A DNA stretch of 64,000 nt, taken from NCBI GenBank assembly GCA_905250025.1, contig CAJNOJ010000159.1, forward strand, positions 62,001-126,000. The letters run 5' to 3'. Position 1 is the first letter of the stretch, and every line of letters begins with the position of its first letter. Of the stretch, positions 3,962-14,483 are shown piece by piece. Under the pieces are notes generated by a model. That model was not told the origin of the DNA. It made no database searches and saw nothing but the letters and a program-made list of their open reading frames with translations. A program made the translations under genes and the position numbers. The DNA is from Adineta ricciae (taxonomy: Eukaryota; Rotifera; Eurotatoria; Adinetida; Adinetidae).

Positions 3962-6900
3962 ATGAGTTCGTTACGAAACAATGCGAATGAATGGTCGGTG
4001 AAGGTTTTAGGTCTTTCGACCGATGTAGGTGGTACTGAATTGTCAATACAATTTGACGTTAACCCGCGACGTATAAGTATTCACAAGCCTCAGTCAGATT
4101 CATCTGAGCAGTATGCATTAATCGGTGAGTTTTCAAGTGAAACTAAAGCTCTTGAATTTGTCTCAGCATGGAATGAGGCATTTCGTTTTGGACAAGCTGA
4201 GTTGAGGTGCGAACTTTACAGCGAACGAGACAATGAGCGCATACTAGACGAATGCAGTAACAACAGATCAAATACTTCAAATTCGAACCGTTCTATTGAT
4301 GATGATGAGAAACCATCATGTTACGCTGGTAGGAAAGACACCAACAGTCGAACCATTGAATAGGCAAGGTCATTTATATTATTAGAGCCATCAATCGACG
4401 ATCCATATGCTTCTCAACAGCGATCGCGCTCCAAAGACATACCGTGCCGTCACGGTGATCATTGTTTCAATGCTGACTGTCCTTATCGACATTCTCCAAA
4501 CTGGAATGTATGTAAGTATGGGGCACAATGCACAAGCTTTCATTGTACAGCAAATCATCCACGCACTCGTAAGGATAAATGTAGATATGGGAGTGGATGT
4601 CGAACAAATAGCTGTGCCTTTCTGCATCCGAACAGGAATTCTGATGATAAACGATCACGAAAGGATCGATCAATTTCACCTGTTCGATCGCGCGACGATG
4701 ATTCTTCTCAGGTGGGTTCTATTTATTTCTATGCTACATCACTCATATCGTTCGATGAAATAGAAATCTTGCAGTACAACAAATGAAAGATCTAATGATC
4801 AGCGAAGACAATCATACCAACATTGCAAATCTGAGGAGACACGAATGAATGATCGGCAGAACGCATCACCAGCAATTTTTGCAGCAAGAACTGAATTTTG
4901 TGAACGCCTTCAGAACGAGAGGATACTGATCGTTGTAGGTGAAATAGGTACTGGCAAGAGTACTCAATTGCCGCAGTATGCAGCTGAATGCTTTCCGGAT
5001 GATCTCATCGTTTCTGTTCAACCGCGACCAGTGTCAGCTATGCTTCTAGCAAATCGAGTCGCCGATGAATATGATGGCGCACCCGCAGGCAACTCAGTTG
5101 GCTATCAGATTGGATACGATCATAAGCGAAAGAACGATTGTGTAGTCGGCACGAATATAATGTTCATGACAGATACAGTTTTTCTATATGAATATCAGAA
5201 AGATCCGAATTTGAGTCGCATACGCGTATTGATCGTCGATGAAGTTTACGAACGATCGTTAAATATAGATATTATCATTGGTATTGCTAAACTTGTATTA
5301 ATGAATCGACCAACGGACTTCTACATTGTTATCGCTTCGACAACAACGAATCTACAATTATTCGTAGACTATTTCGATGTTTCTTCCGCTTTAGTCGTTC
5401 GTCCAAAGAATCCAACATATTCTGTCCCTGTTGAAAATCGATTGCCGCCCGACGGCTGTCCAAATCACAAACTTATCGAAGTACATGTCATACCCACTCT
5501 GTTAAATTTCTATCACAAACATCGAGAACATACAATTGTATTTTTGCCCGGTCAACGAGATATTGAAAAAGCAATTCAAGTTTTTTCCAATGATATACCG
5601 AAAGATTGCATTGCACTGCCACTTTATGGATCACTGTCATACGAAGAGCATAGGCAGATCTTAGAATTCGACAGCAAATCGCCAGACAAACGAATGGTTC
5701 TCTTTTGTGCGAATATTGCTGAAACATCAATACCAGTCAGGAACATTCAACTTGTTATTGATACTGGTTTTATACGTCAATCGCGTTTCGATGCACAATA
5801 TAACTGGAACGTTTTGGAAACAGTGCGCATATCGCGCTGTTCTGCCAGTAAACGTCGAGATTTAGTCAGCCATTCGAAATATGGGCGATGTGTCCGCTTA
5901 TATGATGATAGAGACCTGAAAGATGAGTGCATCGAGCCTGAAATTCTTCGTGTTTCGTTCGAGCTTCCTCTTCTTCAATTCAAACGTTTAAATATTGATC
6001 TACATACATTTCCATTTGTAACGAAACCTCTTACAAACACAATACATCATTCGACAGATGTTTTAACACAGTTATGTTGTCTTGATAAACATAATGACAT
6101 AACACTACGCGGCCAACTTTTTTCCGAACTGTCGATTGATCCTCGTCTAAGCGCGTTCATGACCAATATTTATACCGAACAGACCGAAAGTCAACGCTTA
6201 CTACCATTGATAACTACTATTGCTGCAATACTGTCTACACCCGGTTCGTTGTTTTCATCGAAAGGAACTGTGGATCGTCACGATGTTGATTTACAGCACA
6301 GCGCCACACTGGATAATAATAAATGTAGTAGTGATCTGTTTCGTCTTTGCTCGATGTTTGACGAATGGAAATCTGCTGGTGAAATTGACCGAAAAACCAA
6401 CAAATGCCAACGATGCCGTAAAACATTCCCAAGTGATGTAGATTATTGCCAATCGTGTCGTATTAAACATTCATCCATGAATGGGCTCAATAACCAAATT
6501 CTTGAGCATATCGAAAGTTCAACAGAATTCTACAGAGGAACAATCACAGATCCACGCTGGAATTTAAAAACTGGAAGTCGATCGTTTCATAAAAAATGGT
6601 CCGATGGCGATATCATTGGTAAACATCTGGCCAAAGTTTTCCCTACACACGTCGGCCATTTACTCGTACCACATCTACCTAACGAAGGTGCTCGTCTCAT
6701 TGAAAGCGATATACGTGTGACTATCGCCAATAGAAGTATTTATACTCAACATGCACATGAATGTGCACAGCAGTATTTCGTTGCTACACTTATCACACAG
6801 GTATCATCTGGAAGATATACTATCGATCGACTGCATCAAATTCCGACCCGCGATGTTCCCGTCTCACCGATGCAGCAAATACTCGTACGCGAAAATATCG

Positions 6901-9620
6901 GAGAATCGACTGGCAATAAGATTCGAGCTGAGCTGAGCAATATCTTGTCGGAATCATGGGCAAAATGGCTCGTGTACGACTACGATCGATTATCATCTCG
7001 TTTGGCCGTTTGGGGTTTGAAAGGCGATCAAGCTCGGTTAGAATCGATTTTAGCGCCGATGTTATCGAGAGCAAATATAAAAAACATCGAGTGTGGTTCT
7101 GTTCGAGCGACATTTCAAAATGGTTTGATTTGCTCAGCTGTAGAAATTATGGAGGACGATCTTCGACTTTGTCTGCAACGAGTTCCATGTGAAACATTCG
7201 ACGAATTACAAGTCTGGTTTAGAATCAAACTGAACATCACTCGACATGATATTCGAGAGAATAACTTTCAAGAATGTAAAACCAAACACAAAAATAGCAG
7301 TGACGATGACGACGACGACGACGATGACGATGCCTACGAAGCACCACCGTTTTACATTGTACTGAAGTCAACAGAAGCTTTTCAAAGAGCAATAGCCAAT
7401 CTGCCAGCACATCATATATGCTCTCAACAAGCTTTATCGCTATCGACTACAGGAACACATATGGATGAAAAAGATTCATGGGGTCGCCGGTTAGTATTAA
7501 CCATTCCTGCCAGTAGCACTTCTACCAATGGCAAAGACATCTTAAATCGATTGATTCCGCATGCTGTCGATTGTCATGGATTGGGCCAGCGAAGAAGCAT
7601 ACGGGATCAGCCAGGTATTCAATTGATTAATTTACCGAGAGACACAGACAAATCATTCGTGCGAAAAATTTTACAACCGATCAATCCATTAAAGATCAGT
7701 TTACGACAAACACATAAGGATAATATAGGCTCATCATCAGCTCATATTTTCTTTGCTGATCAGCAGCAGTGTCAACAAGCGAAAGCGACTCTGCAGTCTG
7801 GCTTTTGTCAAAAACCAATAACAATTACTGTCCGAAGTCAAGCAAACCGTCAACTCGTACAAAAAAGTGTCACGCCAACTCTCAGTGACTTAGCGAGTAA
7901 ACATTCTAATGGCCAGAAATTTCTCGTCACAGCGACGCATCGTGAGTCAGCACTTCGATTATACAAAGAAATCATTCCAAAACTGGAGAGTTCATGGACA
8001 ATTGACAGTTCAGCAACGGTGACTGTTACTCATCCTCATCTTTATCCTGATTTCGATGCACTTATCGCCCAAATCGCCAAACAGTTTGCGGTTCAAGTTC
8101 AACAGCAACCCGTCGTTAAAAGACAACGAAATGGCCATACTGCTGTTCGATGTTTCTTTAGCAACGGTAGTCCACAAAAGACAGCCGCAGCGGCAGCTAT
8201 GCTTTCTCAAGCAACATCGCCAATTATCATCAAGATGACAAGCGATCGACAGAAACAACTGTTTGATGAACTTTTCTCACGGAATATTATTCAAGAGTGG
8301 GCAACTAAATTAAAACTCGAAGTTTGCCGAAGAGAAAGATCACACGTATGGATTGAAATTCGTGGTCCACAAGTACAACAAGGTGAGCTCATGCGTCAAA
8401 TAGGCGATTATTCCGATAAATTCGATGAACGATTCCGTGTACTTGAGTTAAAGTCAACAGTAGCTAACTTTTTTGGACGTAGGAAACTAGCGGATGTTCA
8501 GCTTGAAGCTCTCAACGATACTTGGTCAAATTGGGGTTGTTCTGTGGCTTATAAACCGAAAACGAGATCGATTATTATCTACGCAGATCCAGATGCCAGT
8601 CAATCATTGATCGATTCGTGCGTAACAGAAGTGAAACAGTTACTAACAAAGCTTTCTGCCGATGGTAATGTCACTCGAGACCAGCAAAAATGCGTGTTTT
8701 GTGGAAAGTTATCATATTCAACAAATACATTACGGGCCTGTGGTCATGCGTATTGTCGATGCGCATCAACTCATTTAAGTTCAACTTATCCCTTACAATG
8801 TAACGAACCGAAGTGTAAAGCGAATATCGCTATAGAAGACTTATTTGAAATCTTTCTTGAACGAGAAGCACTTCTAACCGTGTGTAAAAAGGCCATACAA
8901 ATTTATTTTAATAATAATGCCAAAACTTTGGATCAAGCCTTTTGTCCGAGCACGGAGTGTTATGCTTTAATTAAAAAATCACGTGGTTATCAAACATGTT
9001 TTTCTTGTGGACGAGATATCTGTCCATCTTGTTCCGTGATTGACAATGATGCGCACATTGGAAGAACGTGCAAAGAGCGTGAACAGTTCGAAAAAATGGG
9101 TGACTTTCTCACTAATTTGTTTAAAACCGCTGAGAAATTTGCACGTGATAATTGGTTGCCCACCTTACCACCTATAATTCGCGTTGATTATAACATGGCA
9201 CTGGTAGATCACTGTGCATCGCTGAAACGATTCTACAAAGGCGCTGAGTCTCTAGGCTTTTCTGCACCACCTGATATGGCACGAGGATTCTTTGCATTTC
9301 ATGGCACGGCTGCAACAGCTATCAAACCGATCTGCACCGACGGTTTTGATCCTAAACGTCGCAGTGGTCAAGCTTGTGGTCCCGGTGAGTACTTCGGTGT
9401 AACAGCAGCAATCTCTCACGGTTATTGCCGTCCACTGAGTCCACAAGGACCGTATTCTATGATCATCGCCTTTCTACTCAACTGTCCTCAGTTGAGCACC
9501 CGACCAGGCTTTTGTCACGTGATGAATAACCCCATTGATTGGTCAGCCGCTTACAATGCACCGGTGGTTGTCGTTTCCTATGGCACCCAGTCTAGTTGTC
9601 AATCACCATTAGCAAGTTAA
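3962..9620 (+). CDS. RRM-like / CCCH / DExH helicase / RING-IBR / ADP-ribosyltransferase fusion protein
   Basis: Three exons (3962-4328, 4386-4711, 4764-9620) join in frame to give about 1849 residues. In order: an RRM-like N-terminus; three tandem Nab2-type C-x5-C-x4-C-x3-H fingers (about residues 143-204); a DEAH-family helicase core with Walker A GEIGTGKST (about 290) and HA2 region; a C-x2-C/C-x2-C zinc ribbon (about 777-800); an Asp run near 1078; RING1 (from about 1541) and IBR (about 1623-1670); and a PARP-like ADP-ribosyltransferase domain with FHGT (His about 1744) and GPGEYFG (Tyr about 1774). The helicase is atypical: motif II reads DEVY, motif III is altered and the QRxGRxGR motif VI is absent. 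No RING2 follows the IBR; the ART domain comes instead. RING-IBR-helicase proteins resemble plant DEAH11/12. An RNA-linked ubiquitin/ADP-ribose role, possibly in defence, is inference. Confidence 0.85.
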
Positions 9621-10340
9621 CAGGATTACGATTGAGTGAAACATGCAGTGTTTACTTTGTATGACATGCAATTTTATATTCCTGAACTTTCTTTAAATAA
9701 TTGGTTAAACATTGATTGAAACTTAGAGTGCAAATACATCTTTCTCAATGTTAGTAATAATAACAGCCTGGCATCATGACATTTTCGATAGAGAATGACA
9801 TAAAAATAAAAGCACTTAAAAGTAAAAAGTACGATTCAATTAGAAAGAAAGCGAAAAGAATTGCTTTACCGTGAAGCACAGAAGACCTCGAGTGTTTCTG
9901 CAAATATATTTGTCAAATAAAAATCTCGCAAGTTCGTGTGAAATAGAATAATTTCCTTGGAAAATCACGATATCATCAAAGTTCTCTATGTGTTGCTATC
10001 GACATCTTTCTTACGATCATAACGAATGGCGCATTGTATTCACCATTAATCAATCTTCTGCAGTACAAAATACATCCCTCCATTCATCCATCTATCTATC
10101 TTTCCTTCTGTTGTTTTCTACAGAGTTAGGCGTTCACCAGAGCAATTTTCTTTTCTCGAGTTCTGCGACAAGAACGTTGAGTTTGATGAATAGAGAATGT
10201 CTTTATTCCTCTTTCTCTGGCGAAATGTAACGAGAAAAAAAAAGAAAAATACGGCTCGGTACATTAACCCTCAACATATAAATGCTGCTTGTTTTGCAAA
10301 GAGAACGTTCTCATTCTAAACGGGCGGAATCTCACCAACC
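9621..10340 (+). promoter_or_regulatory. intergenic with TATA-like box before pyruvate decarboxylase
   Basis: About 720 bases without a gene. A TATA-like ATATAAAT lies at 10276-10283, some 60 bases before the ATG at 10341. The ORF at 9988-10230 has no family features. Confidence 0.4.
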
Positions 10341-12623
10341 ATGTCGTCAAAGAAAATCACGATTGGAAACTATTTACTTCGACGTTTAAAAGATCTAGGC
10401 GTCGATATAATCTTCGGTGTACCTGGTGACTATAATTTAGTATGTCTTTTCTTTAACTTTTATCTTGTGCAAATATCACTTGTTTTTCTTTTTGTTTCAT
10501 ATCAGCCGTTTCTTGATCAAATTGAAGGTAATGTACCCATGAAAAGATTATTTCGATGTAACTCATCGTCATCATTCAGATTTCGGTAGCATTCAATGGG
10601 GTAACAATTGTAACGAATTAAACGCGTCCTATGCAGCAGATGGCTATGCACGTATTCGAGGCATCGGAGTGAGTCACACAAGTGCAAAAGAATATATACA
10701 TGATCATGTTGACGTTTAGGCAATTGTAACAACATTTGGTGTTGGAGAATTGTCTGCTATTAATGGTAAAAACACGAGTGTTTGGCAAATATGATTTGTT
10801 TATAATAAAGTTCTTTAGGCATTGCTGGTTCTTATGCTGAAATGGTTCCAGTTGTGCATATTGTTGGCACGCCACCAACAGCTTCTCAAGCAAGTGGGGC
10901 TATTCTTCACCATACATTAGGCAACGGAGATTTTCGTGCATTCGCAAACATGTACAAGGAAGTGACAGTATGTGTTCAGTTGATATGTCAGTCGTCCTAA
11001 ATCTTCACGTTTGGTTGTTTTTGTCTTTCATAGATTGCTCAAGCCAATTTAACAAAGACAAACGCTGTCGAAGAAATTGATCGTGTTCTTACCCAATGGT
11101 ACAGTTATTCACTTTCGCATGTTCGAAAAACGAATGTCGATTTTTAGTTTGATGAAGGGTCGTCCAGTTTATATCGGCTTAGCAGTTGATCTTAGCGATT
11201 ATGAGCTTAACATCGACCCAGCGGAAATCAAACCATTGAATTTGGCTACGCAACGCAATCCGAAAGACGAACATGAAGCGGCTCTTGAAGCAATTATTGA
11301 TATTGCTAAACGAGCGCAAAACGCCGTGGTTATTGTTGATGCGTACGTAACAAAAGATACCTGTCAAAGCGAAAATTTCTTTACGCTTTCTTCTCCTATA
11401 GCTGTGCGATTCGACATGAAATGATGAAGAAAGTTTTAACTTTTCTTGATCGTACGAAATTACCTGTTTACGTAACACCGATGGCCAAAGGTGGTATCGA
11501 TGAGAACCATCCCCAATTTCGCGGTGTATTTTCCGGTAATTGTTCAACCGAACAAGTTCAAAAGGAGATTTACGATGCCGATCTCATTCTTTCAATCGGA
11601 TCGATGAACAGTGATTTCAATACCGGTGGATTTACCTATCGTTTATCTCGAAAGAAAACAATCGGTAAATCTCTATCAATTCTATGAAGAACAAATCGAT
11701 TTGTATCTTTGCAGAATTTCACACCTATCATACGAAAATCTTTCATGCTATCTACGACAAAGTTGACATGCGTCAGTTATTACCCGACTTAACCGAACAA
11801 TGGCCAGCGGAGTTGGTCCGCGATAACAAGAATCTCAAACCGTTTGAAATCCCACCACCTGCATTAGATGCAAAATCGGACGCTATTGTCCATGAATATT
11901 TCTGGAATAAATTATCAGACCTCATTCCCGAGAACTCCATAATTGTCGCTGAAACGGGTACATCCGAATTCGGTAAGTGTGATTGATATTTTATAACAGC
12001 TTAACGTTTGGTTCATATTCAGGTATTTTCAATATGCGCGCACCGAAAGGCGCAACATTTTTAACGCAGATTCTATGGGGTTCGATTGGTTATTCTGTCG
12101 GTGCAGCATTAGGTGCATCGTTGGCAGGAAAGAAGGACAATCGACGTGTTTTCGTCTTCGTTGGAGACGGTTCGTTTCAAGTAAACATAGATGAATTGCT
12201 GGTAAATGAGTCAAAAGCATTGTTCTTCTTTTTCAGCTTGTTTGCCAAGAAATTTCTTCGATGTTACGTTTTCAAAGCAATCTAGTTCTCTTATTATTGA
12301 ATAACGACGGTTATACAATCGAGAAATTGATTCATGGACCTGATCGTGCTTACAATAACATTCAAATGTGGCGTTATCATAAAAGCTTCGAATACTTCGG
12401 TAATGGTTTAAAACAAAATCGTCCGCAGGCAACAACAGGTTTCGCTGGTCAAGTCAAAACACGTGATGAATTCGAAAAAGCCATGCAACAAGCTGTTCAA
12501 GAAACAGAGAAACTCCACTTTCTCGAAGTCGTTATGCCACCGATGGATGCACCGCAAAGTTTAGTCCTTACAATTGAAGGCACTCGAGAATACAAGCGAC
12601 GCGAGCGTGAAGGTCAAGAATAG
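10341..12623 (+). CDS. pyruvate decarboxylase-type ThDP enzyme
   Basis: Eleven exons (10341-10439, 10506-10527, 10580-10668, 10720-10765, 10819-10967, 11034-11098, 11148-11342, 11402-11664, 11715-11972, 12023-12180, 12237-12623) join to 576 residues, the usual PDC length. The start [16 protein letters not shown] and [10 protein letters not shown], the cofactor-activating Glu in [16 protein letters not shown], the His pair in ILHHTLG and the ThDP/Mg motif GDGS...NNDG are all present, so it should be catalytically competent. PDCs convert pyruvate (or related 2-oxo acids such as indolepyruvate) to the aldehyde and CO2 in the cytosol. The family is typical of fungi, plants and bacteria, not animals. 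Introns show it is resident in a eukaryotic genome, so an old horizontal acquisition is the simplest inference. Confidence 0.93.
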
Positions 12624-12751
12624 ATTCGGAACAATGAACACGTCATATCAGTCTATTTGTTTTTGATGTAGTAGAATTCATTTTAGTTCAAATAAAGACA
12701 TATTTTATTTTTAGTGTCGTAATTTTACATCGACATTTTCCATTGCAGATC

Positions 12752-14483
12752 ATGACGGAAAATCAGTGTTGCGAAAAAAGTGAGAGTGACGCATGGAATA
12801 ATTATAATCTGTTCACAACGACAACGGAATGTACAGAGGAGAAAACCATTGAATTTCAAGGTAAAATACCAGAATGGTTGAAGGGCAATTTGTATCGAAA
12901 CGGACCCGGATCGTATGAGATCAATAATGATGCCGCAACGACATTTAATCATCTCTTTGATGGCTTCGCCTATATACAAAAATATAGTTTCGATGGGCCA
13001 TCACAAACAGTTCGTTTCCGCGGCTCCTTTGTCAAGTCTCGTACGTACAACGAATCCACCAAGAATGGACAATTAATGATGCGACAATTCGGTACTGATC
13101 CATGTAAATCAATCTTCGGTCGATTTCAATCATTTTTCTATGGCAAAGATCCAGCGACAGCAACTGATGATACTGGTGTTACTGTTCAAATGGTGCAAAA
13201 CGAATTATTAGCATTGACCGAAATTCCTGTTGGCAATGTTCTTGATCCGGACACACTTGAACCCGTCGGTCCACTTGTCACTCTGCCTTTCGGTCAACCA
13301 AAGGAGTCGACCATCATGTCGACAACCACCGCGCATGTTATGTACGATGCTAAACGTAAAATGACAGTCGGTTACAGCAGTCGAGCGACGAAAAATGGAA
13401 ATTTTCTCGATGTCGTTTTTATTCCGGAAGAACCGGAAGAGGAAGGAACCAAAGGTAAACGAAATTTGTTTAATCTCGATTGCATATATTGAATATTCCT
13501 CTCTAGAAGATGATAATGATCATATTGATAAATTATTTGAATCGGATCGTCGTTTTGTCCATTTAACAACGAATATGAGTGAACGCGCTAAGAAATACAA
13601 TCATCGTATTAAGAAAACCACCAAGGCATTTCGTTTCCCATCAAATCATACATGCTACATGCATTCAGCATCGATCAGTGAAAATTATCTGATTCTTAGT
13701 GAAATTCCACTTCATTTCGATAAATTCTACGGTCTTTGGTTTTTAATGTCCGGTGGAATTGCTTCGTCGGCATTCAAATGGAATGGAGATACATTGCCCA
13801 CCTACTTTCGCGTCATCAGTTTAGACACCGGCGAACAAGTTGCTTATATTCCGGGACCAGCATTCTTCCATTTTCATCATGTTAATTCTTATGAAAGCGG
13901 AGAAAATAAACGAAAGATTCTCGTCGATATCTGTGCGTTTGATGATCAGCGAATTATCGATGAATTGCACTTGGATAAATTACGCGACAATATTTTCCCA
14001 TCGGGTGGTGGGTATCTTCGACGATTCGAACTGGATTTAGACGGCAATACATGTTCCGAACCAAATGCGAATGCACGAGAACCAAAGGGCAATCATTGTT
14101 TCAGTTATTCACATAGTCTCGTGCCTGTTCAATTTGAATTACCACGCATCAATCCAAATTTTATCGGTAAACCTTATCGATATGTTTATGGGGATCGAGC
14201 AGTACCAGGACGATTGTTTGATGCATTAATCAAACTAGATCTTGAAACAAAACAAGAAGTTTGCAAATGGGAAGAACCATATACATCACCAAGTGAACCG
14301 ATCTTCGTTCCTAATCCCGATGGATCTAGTGGTGAAGACAACGGAGTTGTCTTATCGGTTGTTTTAGACCAAAAAGCAAAACGATCGTTTCTATTGGTTC
14401 TTGATGGCAGTAATTTCAAAGAATTGGCACGTGCTTATCTTCCAGTACATATACCTGCATCTTTTCATGGCAATTTTTATTAA
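12752..14483 (+). CDS. carotenoid oxygenase (BCO/RPE65 family)
   Basis: Two exons (12752-13454 and 13507-14483) give 559 residues. The N-terminus has WLKGNLYRNGPGSYE and FDGFAYIQKY, typical of beta-carotene oxygenase/RPE65. The four iron-binding His contexts are visible: TTAHVMYD, CYMHSAS, FHFHHVNSYE and PASFHGNF. The family cleaves or isomerises carotenoids and retinoids with non-haem iron; substrate cannot be told from sequence. Only 128 bases separate it from the upstream decarboxylase stop, on the same strand, and TTTCCATTGCAG lies 3 bases before the ATG. That fits a trans-spliced downstream gene or a 5'UTR intron. The neighbouring decarboxylase need not share a pathway. Confidence 0.93.

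Follow-up and report, generated by a model that had tools for sequence, protein, structure and literature searches.

RING1-IBR modules joined to a PARP-type domain behind a degenerate DEAH-type helicase core in the bdelloid rotifer Adineta ricciae

We describe here a gene at positions 3962-9620 (plus strand) of a 64,000-nucleotide stretch of DNA from the bdelloid rotifer Adineta ricciae (contig CAJNOJ010000159.1, positions 62,001 to 126,000; hereafter the window), the host genome being 130 Mb in size. Splice enumeration and translation give three exons and two short GT-AG introns, all on the plus strand, and a product of 1849 residues. Exon 1 (3962-4328) encodes residues 1-122 and the first base of codon 123, with a weak RRM-like segment at about residues 10-90. 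Intron 1 (4329-4385, 57 bases) is followed by exon 2 (4386-4711), which contains three Nab2-type CCCH fingers (4445-4633, residues 143-205), and beyond intron 2 (4712-4763, 52 bases) exon 3 (4764-9620) supplies 1618 codons and the stop. The order from N- to C-terminus is thus a weak RRM-like part, three CCCH fingers, a DEAH-type helicase core, a long middle region, RING1, IBR, a 72-residue linker, an ADP-ribosyltransferase (ART) domain and the stop. The frame also stays open with alternative splice choices; the splicing given here is preferred because it reproduces the length of the nearest protein, a separately annotated Adineta ricciae product of 1849 residues (P0001). The two proteins are identical at 1724 of 1849 positions in an ungapped alignment that runs across both splice junctions (107/108 in the ART, 231/265 at the N-terminus).

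The C-terminal domain (residues 1740-1842; 9288-9596, plus strand) had been described as PARP-like in the initial annotation, and profile searches, Pfam and column conservation all bear this out. A profile of 21 ARTs from the family defined below returned 112 PDB matches at E up to 1, the best 60 of which are all PARPs; PARP12 (E 4.5e-8), PARP10 and ZAP head the list, and the H, GxGxYF and S-x2-Y motifs of the family align with PARP12. The Pfam PARP model matched 20 of 21 isolated family domains, the window's own scoring just above the cut-off (27.7 against 26.7 bits). The pocket residues are nearly invariant among the aligned family rows: H1744 of the FHGT motif (9300-9302) is present in 79/79 and G1745 in 78/79, while Y1774 of GEYFG (9390-9392), S1782 and Y1785 of S-x2-Y are each found in 78/78. 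The resulting Tyr-8-Ser-3-Tyr spacing is that of Tyr896, Ser904 and Tyr907 of PARP1, the residues that hold nicotinamide. E1773, which directly precedes the catalytic Tyr, is likewise present in 78/78 rows and looks like a signature of the family. The third triad position, a column matched to PARP1 by eye, holds L (61 of 79 rows), V (6), I (5), A (2), C (1), M (1) or a gap (3), and never Glu. Mono-ARTs likewise lack Glu at this site, where it is confined to polymerases; the hydrophobic residue here predicts mono- rather than poly-ADP-ribosylation, if the domain is active. Judged by sequence homology, the triad His and Tyr and the pocket residues, the domain is of PARP/ARTD type.

Upstream of the ART lie RING1 (residues 1541-1582; 8691-8816) and IBR (residues 1625-1667; 8943-9071), both on the plus strand. 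The zinc-ligand columns of RING1 are occupied in 74-76 of 75-76 rows, the tandem-IBR rows among the 79 having been cut at the last match, and the eight ligand columns of IBR are each intact in 79/79. A 12-row RING1-IBR profile matches RBCK1 (HOIL-1), ARIH2 and RNF31 (HOIP) over both domains, plus many single-RING proteins, and the Pfam IBR model matched 10 of 12 family fragments; both zinc-ligand sets expected of the first two domains of an RBR ligase are thus present, on ligand columns and profile match alike. What is missing is RING2. The linker that occupies its position in RBR proteins (residues 1668-1739; 9072-9287, plus strand) is 72 residues long in the window protein and 67-99 residues long, with 0-4 Cys, across 79 rows, and gave no RING2 profile match. 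A dedicated profile trained on eight helicase-RBR proteins found RING2 in 0/96 ART-family rows at E<1e-3; ten weaker matches (best 0.0055) all fall on IBR or RING1. The same profile was positive in 9/9 helicase-RBR comparators, of which eight had served as training rows and the remaining one (P0101) is a 95% copy of a training row; it also matches P0163 (E 3e-5). A RING2 hidden in the window protein or its family is ruled out by this profile, and the initial proposal of RING1-IBR followed by an ART stands. Because RING2 with its catalytic Cys was tested for and is absent, the window protein is placed outside the RBR ligases.

The same arrangement is widely distributed. Three protein searches, the third limited to the best 120 of 366 matches from 7998 scored candidates, listed 170 proteins, of which at least 95 carry RING1-IBR and then an ART, making 96 with the window's. 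Three of these (P0025, P0054 and P0076) break off within the ART, and two more proteins that stop before RING (P0086 and P0095) were left uncounted. Named bdelloid sources are Adineta, Rotaria and Didymodactylos, all with long proteins; others are Hydra vulgaris, the archamoeba Pelomyxa schiedti, the oomycetes Lagenidium giganteum and Aphanomyces stellatus, the fornicate Kipferlia bialata, and two unclassified eukaryotes, TZLM1-RC and GEM-RC1. Chilomastix cuspidata, another source, is a fornicate as well. The gene in the window is one member of a widespread, old eukaryotic family, which had escaped the initial annotation. The initial annotation had suggested looking for the same order in other bdelloids, molluscs and amphioxus: it is there in bdelloids, but the two named mollusc relatives among the matches listed, from Elysia (P0102) and Littorina (P0105), carry RING2 and no ART, and none of the matches listed, many of which bear no species name, is named as amphioxus. 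As for viral carriers, two peptide patterns derived from the ART alignment and run against IMG/VR matched five stretches, none of which was confirmed as a relative.

The middle region (residues 700-1525; 6168-8645, plus strand), which includes a zinc-ribbon-like CxxC pair (6405-6458, plus strand), is homologous to that of other family members and, through them, to DEAH11/12-type RBR helicases. Alignment of 23 ART-family rows, excluding the window's own clade (clade A, below), with nine RBR helicases, among them those of the molluscs Elysia and Littorina and the plant Cuscuta, was colinear over 617 columns (hhalign 99.2%, E 6.5e-20; all hhalign values here are single-pair comparisons, uncorrected for database size). 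Control comparisons of the family region gave 0.8% with HrpA and 0.2% with reversed columns, which rules out a chance likeness, and the last 400 residues alone still gave 97.3% with the RBR helicases. The beginning of the region, where HrpA itself reached 95.6% with the RBR helicases over 82 columns, is therefore shared among DEAH helicases, and the specific signal lies in the remainder. A helicase tree of 62 rows brings the ART family together in a single group that stands next to the RBR helicases; its support is 87 including P0097 and 100 without it. This tree came from a short search with SH-aLRT support only and HrpA as sole outgroup; it has long branches (P0062, P0148 and P0096) and separates one RBR row, P0148, from the other seven. 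A run of ten Asp codons (7302-7331, residues 1078-1087) lies inside the middle region of the window gene, and an acidic run is also seen in the clade-A consensus.

The resemblance to helicase-type RBR ligases (plant DEAH11 and DEAH12; Marin's 'Plant I/Helicase' group) thus comprises a DEAH core, a middle region colinear at the level of the family and RING1-IBR near the C-terminus, whereas those ligases end in RING2 with an invariant Cys (9/9) and the proteins described here have the ART in its place. The two also differ in Pfam's DEAH11-type KH and RRM models: two KH models match 7-8 of the 9 RBR helicases and the others 2/9, and none is found among the 20 Pfam families of clade A or among those listed for 21 further ART proteins (the best 25 of 37). 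In its simplest reading, this pattern would reflect a single event in which an ART took the place of RING2 in a helicase-type RBR ligase, early in eukaryotes or spread since by transfer. Helicase RBRs have been described as an ancient subfamily that is present in unikonts and bikonts and has been lost repeatedly (PMC2904391). We hold the architecture and the homology of its parts with very high confidence.

Within the bdelloids, the helicase tree unites clade A and a set of other paralogs (group B) in one clade with support 100; the window's gene falls inside clade A, again with support 100, and group B is not recovered as a single clade. The two differ in their helicase cores. The core in the window (residues 276-690; 4896-6140, plus strand; Pfam Helicase_C 27.6 bits in the window open reading frame) keeps motif I as GEIGTGKST (4938-4964), reads DEVYER in place of DEAHER at motif II (5238-5255) and KRRDLVSH in place of QRKGRAGR at motif VI (5850-5873), all on the plus strand, and has STT, so that neither the DEAH box nor the QRxGRxGR motif of active DEAH helicases is found. 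A comparison restricted to rows with 80% coverage (17/18 in clade A, 28/34 in group B and 17 others) showed that this is a property of the clade: motif VI is non-canonical in 17/17 clade-A rows, both DEAHER and QRxGRxGR occur in 0/17, and GK[ST] of motif I is kept in 12/17, the window's among them. Group B retains DEAHER in 26/28 rows and QRxGxAGR in 28/28, and motif VI is canonical in 16 of the 17 other rows, three of those being RBR helicases. The DEAH-family core of the initial annotation is therefore present, but its degeneration in the window's clade had been overlooked. By way of comparison, the group-B paralog P0018 aligns with DHX15, of the DHX15/PRP43-type DEAH helicases, across the core (E 3e-79), whereas the canonical motif VI and DEAH box of such enzymes are gone from clade A. 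One relative from Pelomyxa (P0088) offers a mirror image of the dead-helicase paralog in the window: it keeps RING1-IBR and has a degenerate-looking ART (WYGS, GEYFYL).

Conservation by segment differs in the same way. Mean pairwise identity among 17 clade-A proteins, the window's left out, is 59% in the helicase, 56% and 66% in the middle parts, 65% in RING1-IBR and 80% in the ART, while the corresponding values for 19 of the 34 group-B proteins are 72%, 50% and 45%, 59% and 62%. The best conserved of the five segments is thus the ART in clade A and the helicase in group B, and because of these opposite rankings (59% against 80%, and 72% against 62%) constraint appears to have moved from motor to ART in clade A. 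Clade A and its relatives also differ downstream of the ART, where a WWE domain follows in 31/34 group-B and 37/44 other rows, some of the remaining rows being incomplete; WWE-bearing members scanned singly have two WWE each (Pfam). No clade-A row has one (0/18), a difference that the initial annotation had not noticed, and a six-frame scan of 9001-13000 found none downstream of the window gene (best E 0.66), which rules out a WWE hidden behind the stop codon. Elsewhere in the same genome at least four relatives lie at three loci, L009 (two in tandem), L010 and L011. They are 31-47% identical to the window protein by piece and closer to group B; wherever their core can be read it shows DEAHER and QRxGRAGR, and WWE is present at L009 and L011. 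Two further loci gave a weak ART match only (L012, E 6e-4) and no ART match (L013). At the level of exons, the PARP profile matches the whole genome 125 times, which suggests a large PARP repertoire in this species.

We somewhat favour the view that the window protein is an RNA-tethered mono-ADP-ribosyltransferase built on a dead-helicase scaffold, a specialised paralog of bdelloids. RNA would be bound by the CCCH fingers, the middle region and the helicase fold. The fingers are of the form C-x5-C-x4-C-x3-H (n=3 by pattern count), and similar fingers are recognised by pattern in 10/18 clade-A, 26/34 group-B and 12/44 other ART-family rows. Having lost the arginine-finger motif VI, the clade-A helicase would act as a clamp or scaffold for RNA rather than as a motor. 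RING1-IBR, with its zinc ligands intact, may then dock E2~ubiquitin or ubiquitin beside the C-terminal domain, as RBR ligases do, and the ART would move a single ADP-ribose from NAD+ onto a ribonucleoprotein component, ubiquitin or E2, or the RNA itself, near the bound RNA. There is a good chance that the domain is an active mono-ART, and its activity is likely to be RNA-directed; physical use of E2 or ubiquitin by RING1-IBR is, in our estimation, rather doubtful. The ADP-ribosylation of ubiquitin or RNA that the initial annotation suggested is an inference.

Several observations weigh against this interpretation. Pfam detects neither RING nor IBR in the window's own RING1-IBR fragment, and its PARP model scores 23.5 bits, below the cut-off of 26.7, when run on the full open reading frame. 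Walker A is intact, so that ATP binding may persist. In three family members (P0051, P0055 and P0062, one from Pelomyxa and another, labelled m51a1, probably from Mastigamoeba) several IBR copies follow one another in tandem before the ART, so that a strict RING1-IBR-E2 geometry does not hold throughout the family. In a direct comparison with the RBR helicases, clade A reaches only 1.6% (590 columns in the same range; 1.8% for the late part), little above its own controls at 0.3% and 0.2%. Since clade A matches the rest of the ART family at 100% (E 5e-141) in this region, and the family in turn matches the RBR helicases, the DEAH11/12 kinship proposed in the initial annotation runs through the family as a whole: it is supported there and in the helicase tree, but not for the window's clade taken directly. 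Finally, the N-terminal assignment of an RRM and three CCCH fingers survives only in part. The fingers are recognised by pattern, although Pfam zf-CCCH_2 reached only E 0.0014 on P0001, below cut-off; the RRM-like segment is weak, RRM_1 being matched in 5/17 clade-A proteins at E<=0.1 (best 2.5e-4) and no RRM in P0001 up to E 1.

Whether ubiquitin is involved at all divides the readings, and a plain RNA-guided mono-ART and the ubiquitin-linked alternatives appear about equally open. It is a serious possibility, if one that falls a little short of an even chance, that the ART is a mono-ADP-ribosyltransferase of the PARP7/12/13 kind, guided by RNA and working on its own, while RING1-IBR is a structural or protein-docking remnant with no role in ubiquitin chemistry. 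Its best-scoring solved relatives (PARP12, PARP10 and ZAP) fit this; CCCH fingers and WWE accompany the ART in PARP12 and ZAP as well. The three rows with multiplied IBR point the same way, as does the lack of a canonical linchpin: where that would be a fixed Arg, the residue following the final Cys of RING1 varies, with K in 31, Q in 19 and R in 5 of 75 rows. The linchpin is, however, also missing from the RING1 of RBR ligases, and the RING1 and IBR ligand columns are intact across very divergent lineages, beyond the needs of a bare spacer. The CCCH-type PARPs (PARP12, ZAP/PARP13 and PARP7) resemble the family in their PARP-type ART, with PARP12 the best profile match, in their CCCH-like fingers and in the WWE of many relatives. 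They lack helicase, RING1 and IBR and carry WWE before the ART, whereas WWE is wanting in the window's clade and, in relatives that have it, comes after the ART. A role in defence against foreign RNA, by analogy with PARP12 and ZAP, would be a guess.

A more tentative proposal takes the position of the ART at face value. RING1 of RBR ligases recognises E2~ubiquitin, and the ubiquitin is handed to the RING2 cysteine, according to the literature. An ART in the RING2 seat would be in a good position to modify ubiquitin itself, or to produce an ADP-ribose that accepts ubiquitin. An RNA-bound RING1-IBR could thus present E2~ubiquitin to an ART that ADP-ribosylates ubiquitin or builds an ADP-ribose-ubiquitin hybrid, in a system whose conservation extends from metamonads to animals and whose probable target is foreign RNA; we regard this as possible but on the unlikely side. 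If true, it would add a third fate for E2~ubiquitin to those of RING and RING/HECT-hybrid transfer. Less probable still are composite marks, in which RING1 recruits E2~ubiquitin, the ART modifies a target and ubiquitin is discharged onto the ADP-ribose. WWE domains are ADP-ribose readers, and their addition in group B and other relatives would suit such marks, but the window's own clade has none. Precedents are the joining of ubiquitin to ADP-ribose by Deltex E3s (PMC11668277) and MARUbylation, which cells carry out on PARP10 and on other PARPs (PMC12000418). Ubiquitin-ligase and ADP-ribosylation functions are likewise joined in DTX3L/PARP9 and in PARP10 MARUbylation; there a DTX-family ligase works with a separate PARP (PMC11668277; PMC12000418), whereas here RING1-IBR and ART share one chain and no Deltex-type DTC is among the 20 Pfam families matched by 17 clade-A proteins. 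That the clade-A protein is simply decaying, ART included, would account for its altered helicase motifs and lost WWE and is very improbable: long proteins are retained in Adineta, Rotaria and Didymodactylos, the ART keeps its pocket residues, and domain-wise conservation, highest in the ART (80%), disfavours pure decay. An artefact of annotation, whether two genes or an assembly chimera, has a negligible chance. RING1-IBR and ART lie within the single 1618-codon frame, and the same order in 96 collected proteins from many assemblies rules this reading out in practice and upholds the initial claim of one gene with one product.

The initial annotation had also stated that no system with this order of domains was known. 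We recognised no description of the RING1-IBR-ART architecture in open-access full-text literature, a coverage that mostly leaves out subscription journals, so that the statement stands uncontradicted there, which is not proof; the family is likely, though not proven, to be undescribed. Two papers on bdelloids (PMC6264785; PMC12220480) mention PARP1, PARP2_3_4 and a PARP14-like gene, and this family was not seen in the parts of them available. The links between ubiquitin and ADP-ribose, through Deltex ligases and MARUbylation, form a new field. Here, a single and probably RNA-binding chain combines a RING1-IBR platform of RBR type with a PARP-type ART, the latter sitting where an RBR would pass on its ubiquitin, and this combination has been kept across several eukaryotic supergroups, which raises the question of whether an RBR-type RING1-IBR can feed E2~ubiquitin to something other than a cysteine. 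Clade A, with helicase motifs lost and the ART its best conserved segment, constitutes a natural experiment in this respect.

Other genes flank this one in the window. Coiled-coil-looking exons lie upstream on the minus strand (19-1186), of which the piece scanned, 433-906, gave no Pfam match. Downstream on the plus strand, a multi-exon gene at 10341-12623 encodes a thiamine-diphosphate enzyme (Pfam TPP_enzyme_C in 11983-12282), presumably pyruvate-decarboxylase-like; it is of a type unusual in animals and may have been horizontally acquired. It is followed on the same strand by a gene of RPE65/carotenoid-oxygenase type at 12638-14483 (PF03055, E 5e-31 in 12638-13489), whose next open frame spans 13365-14483.

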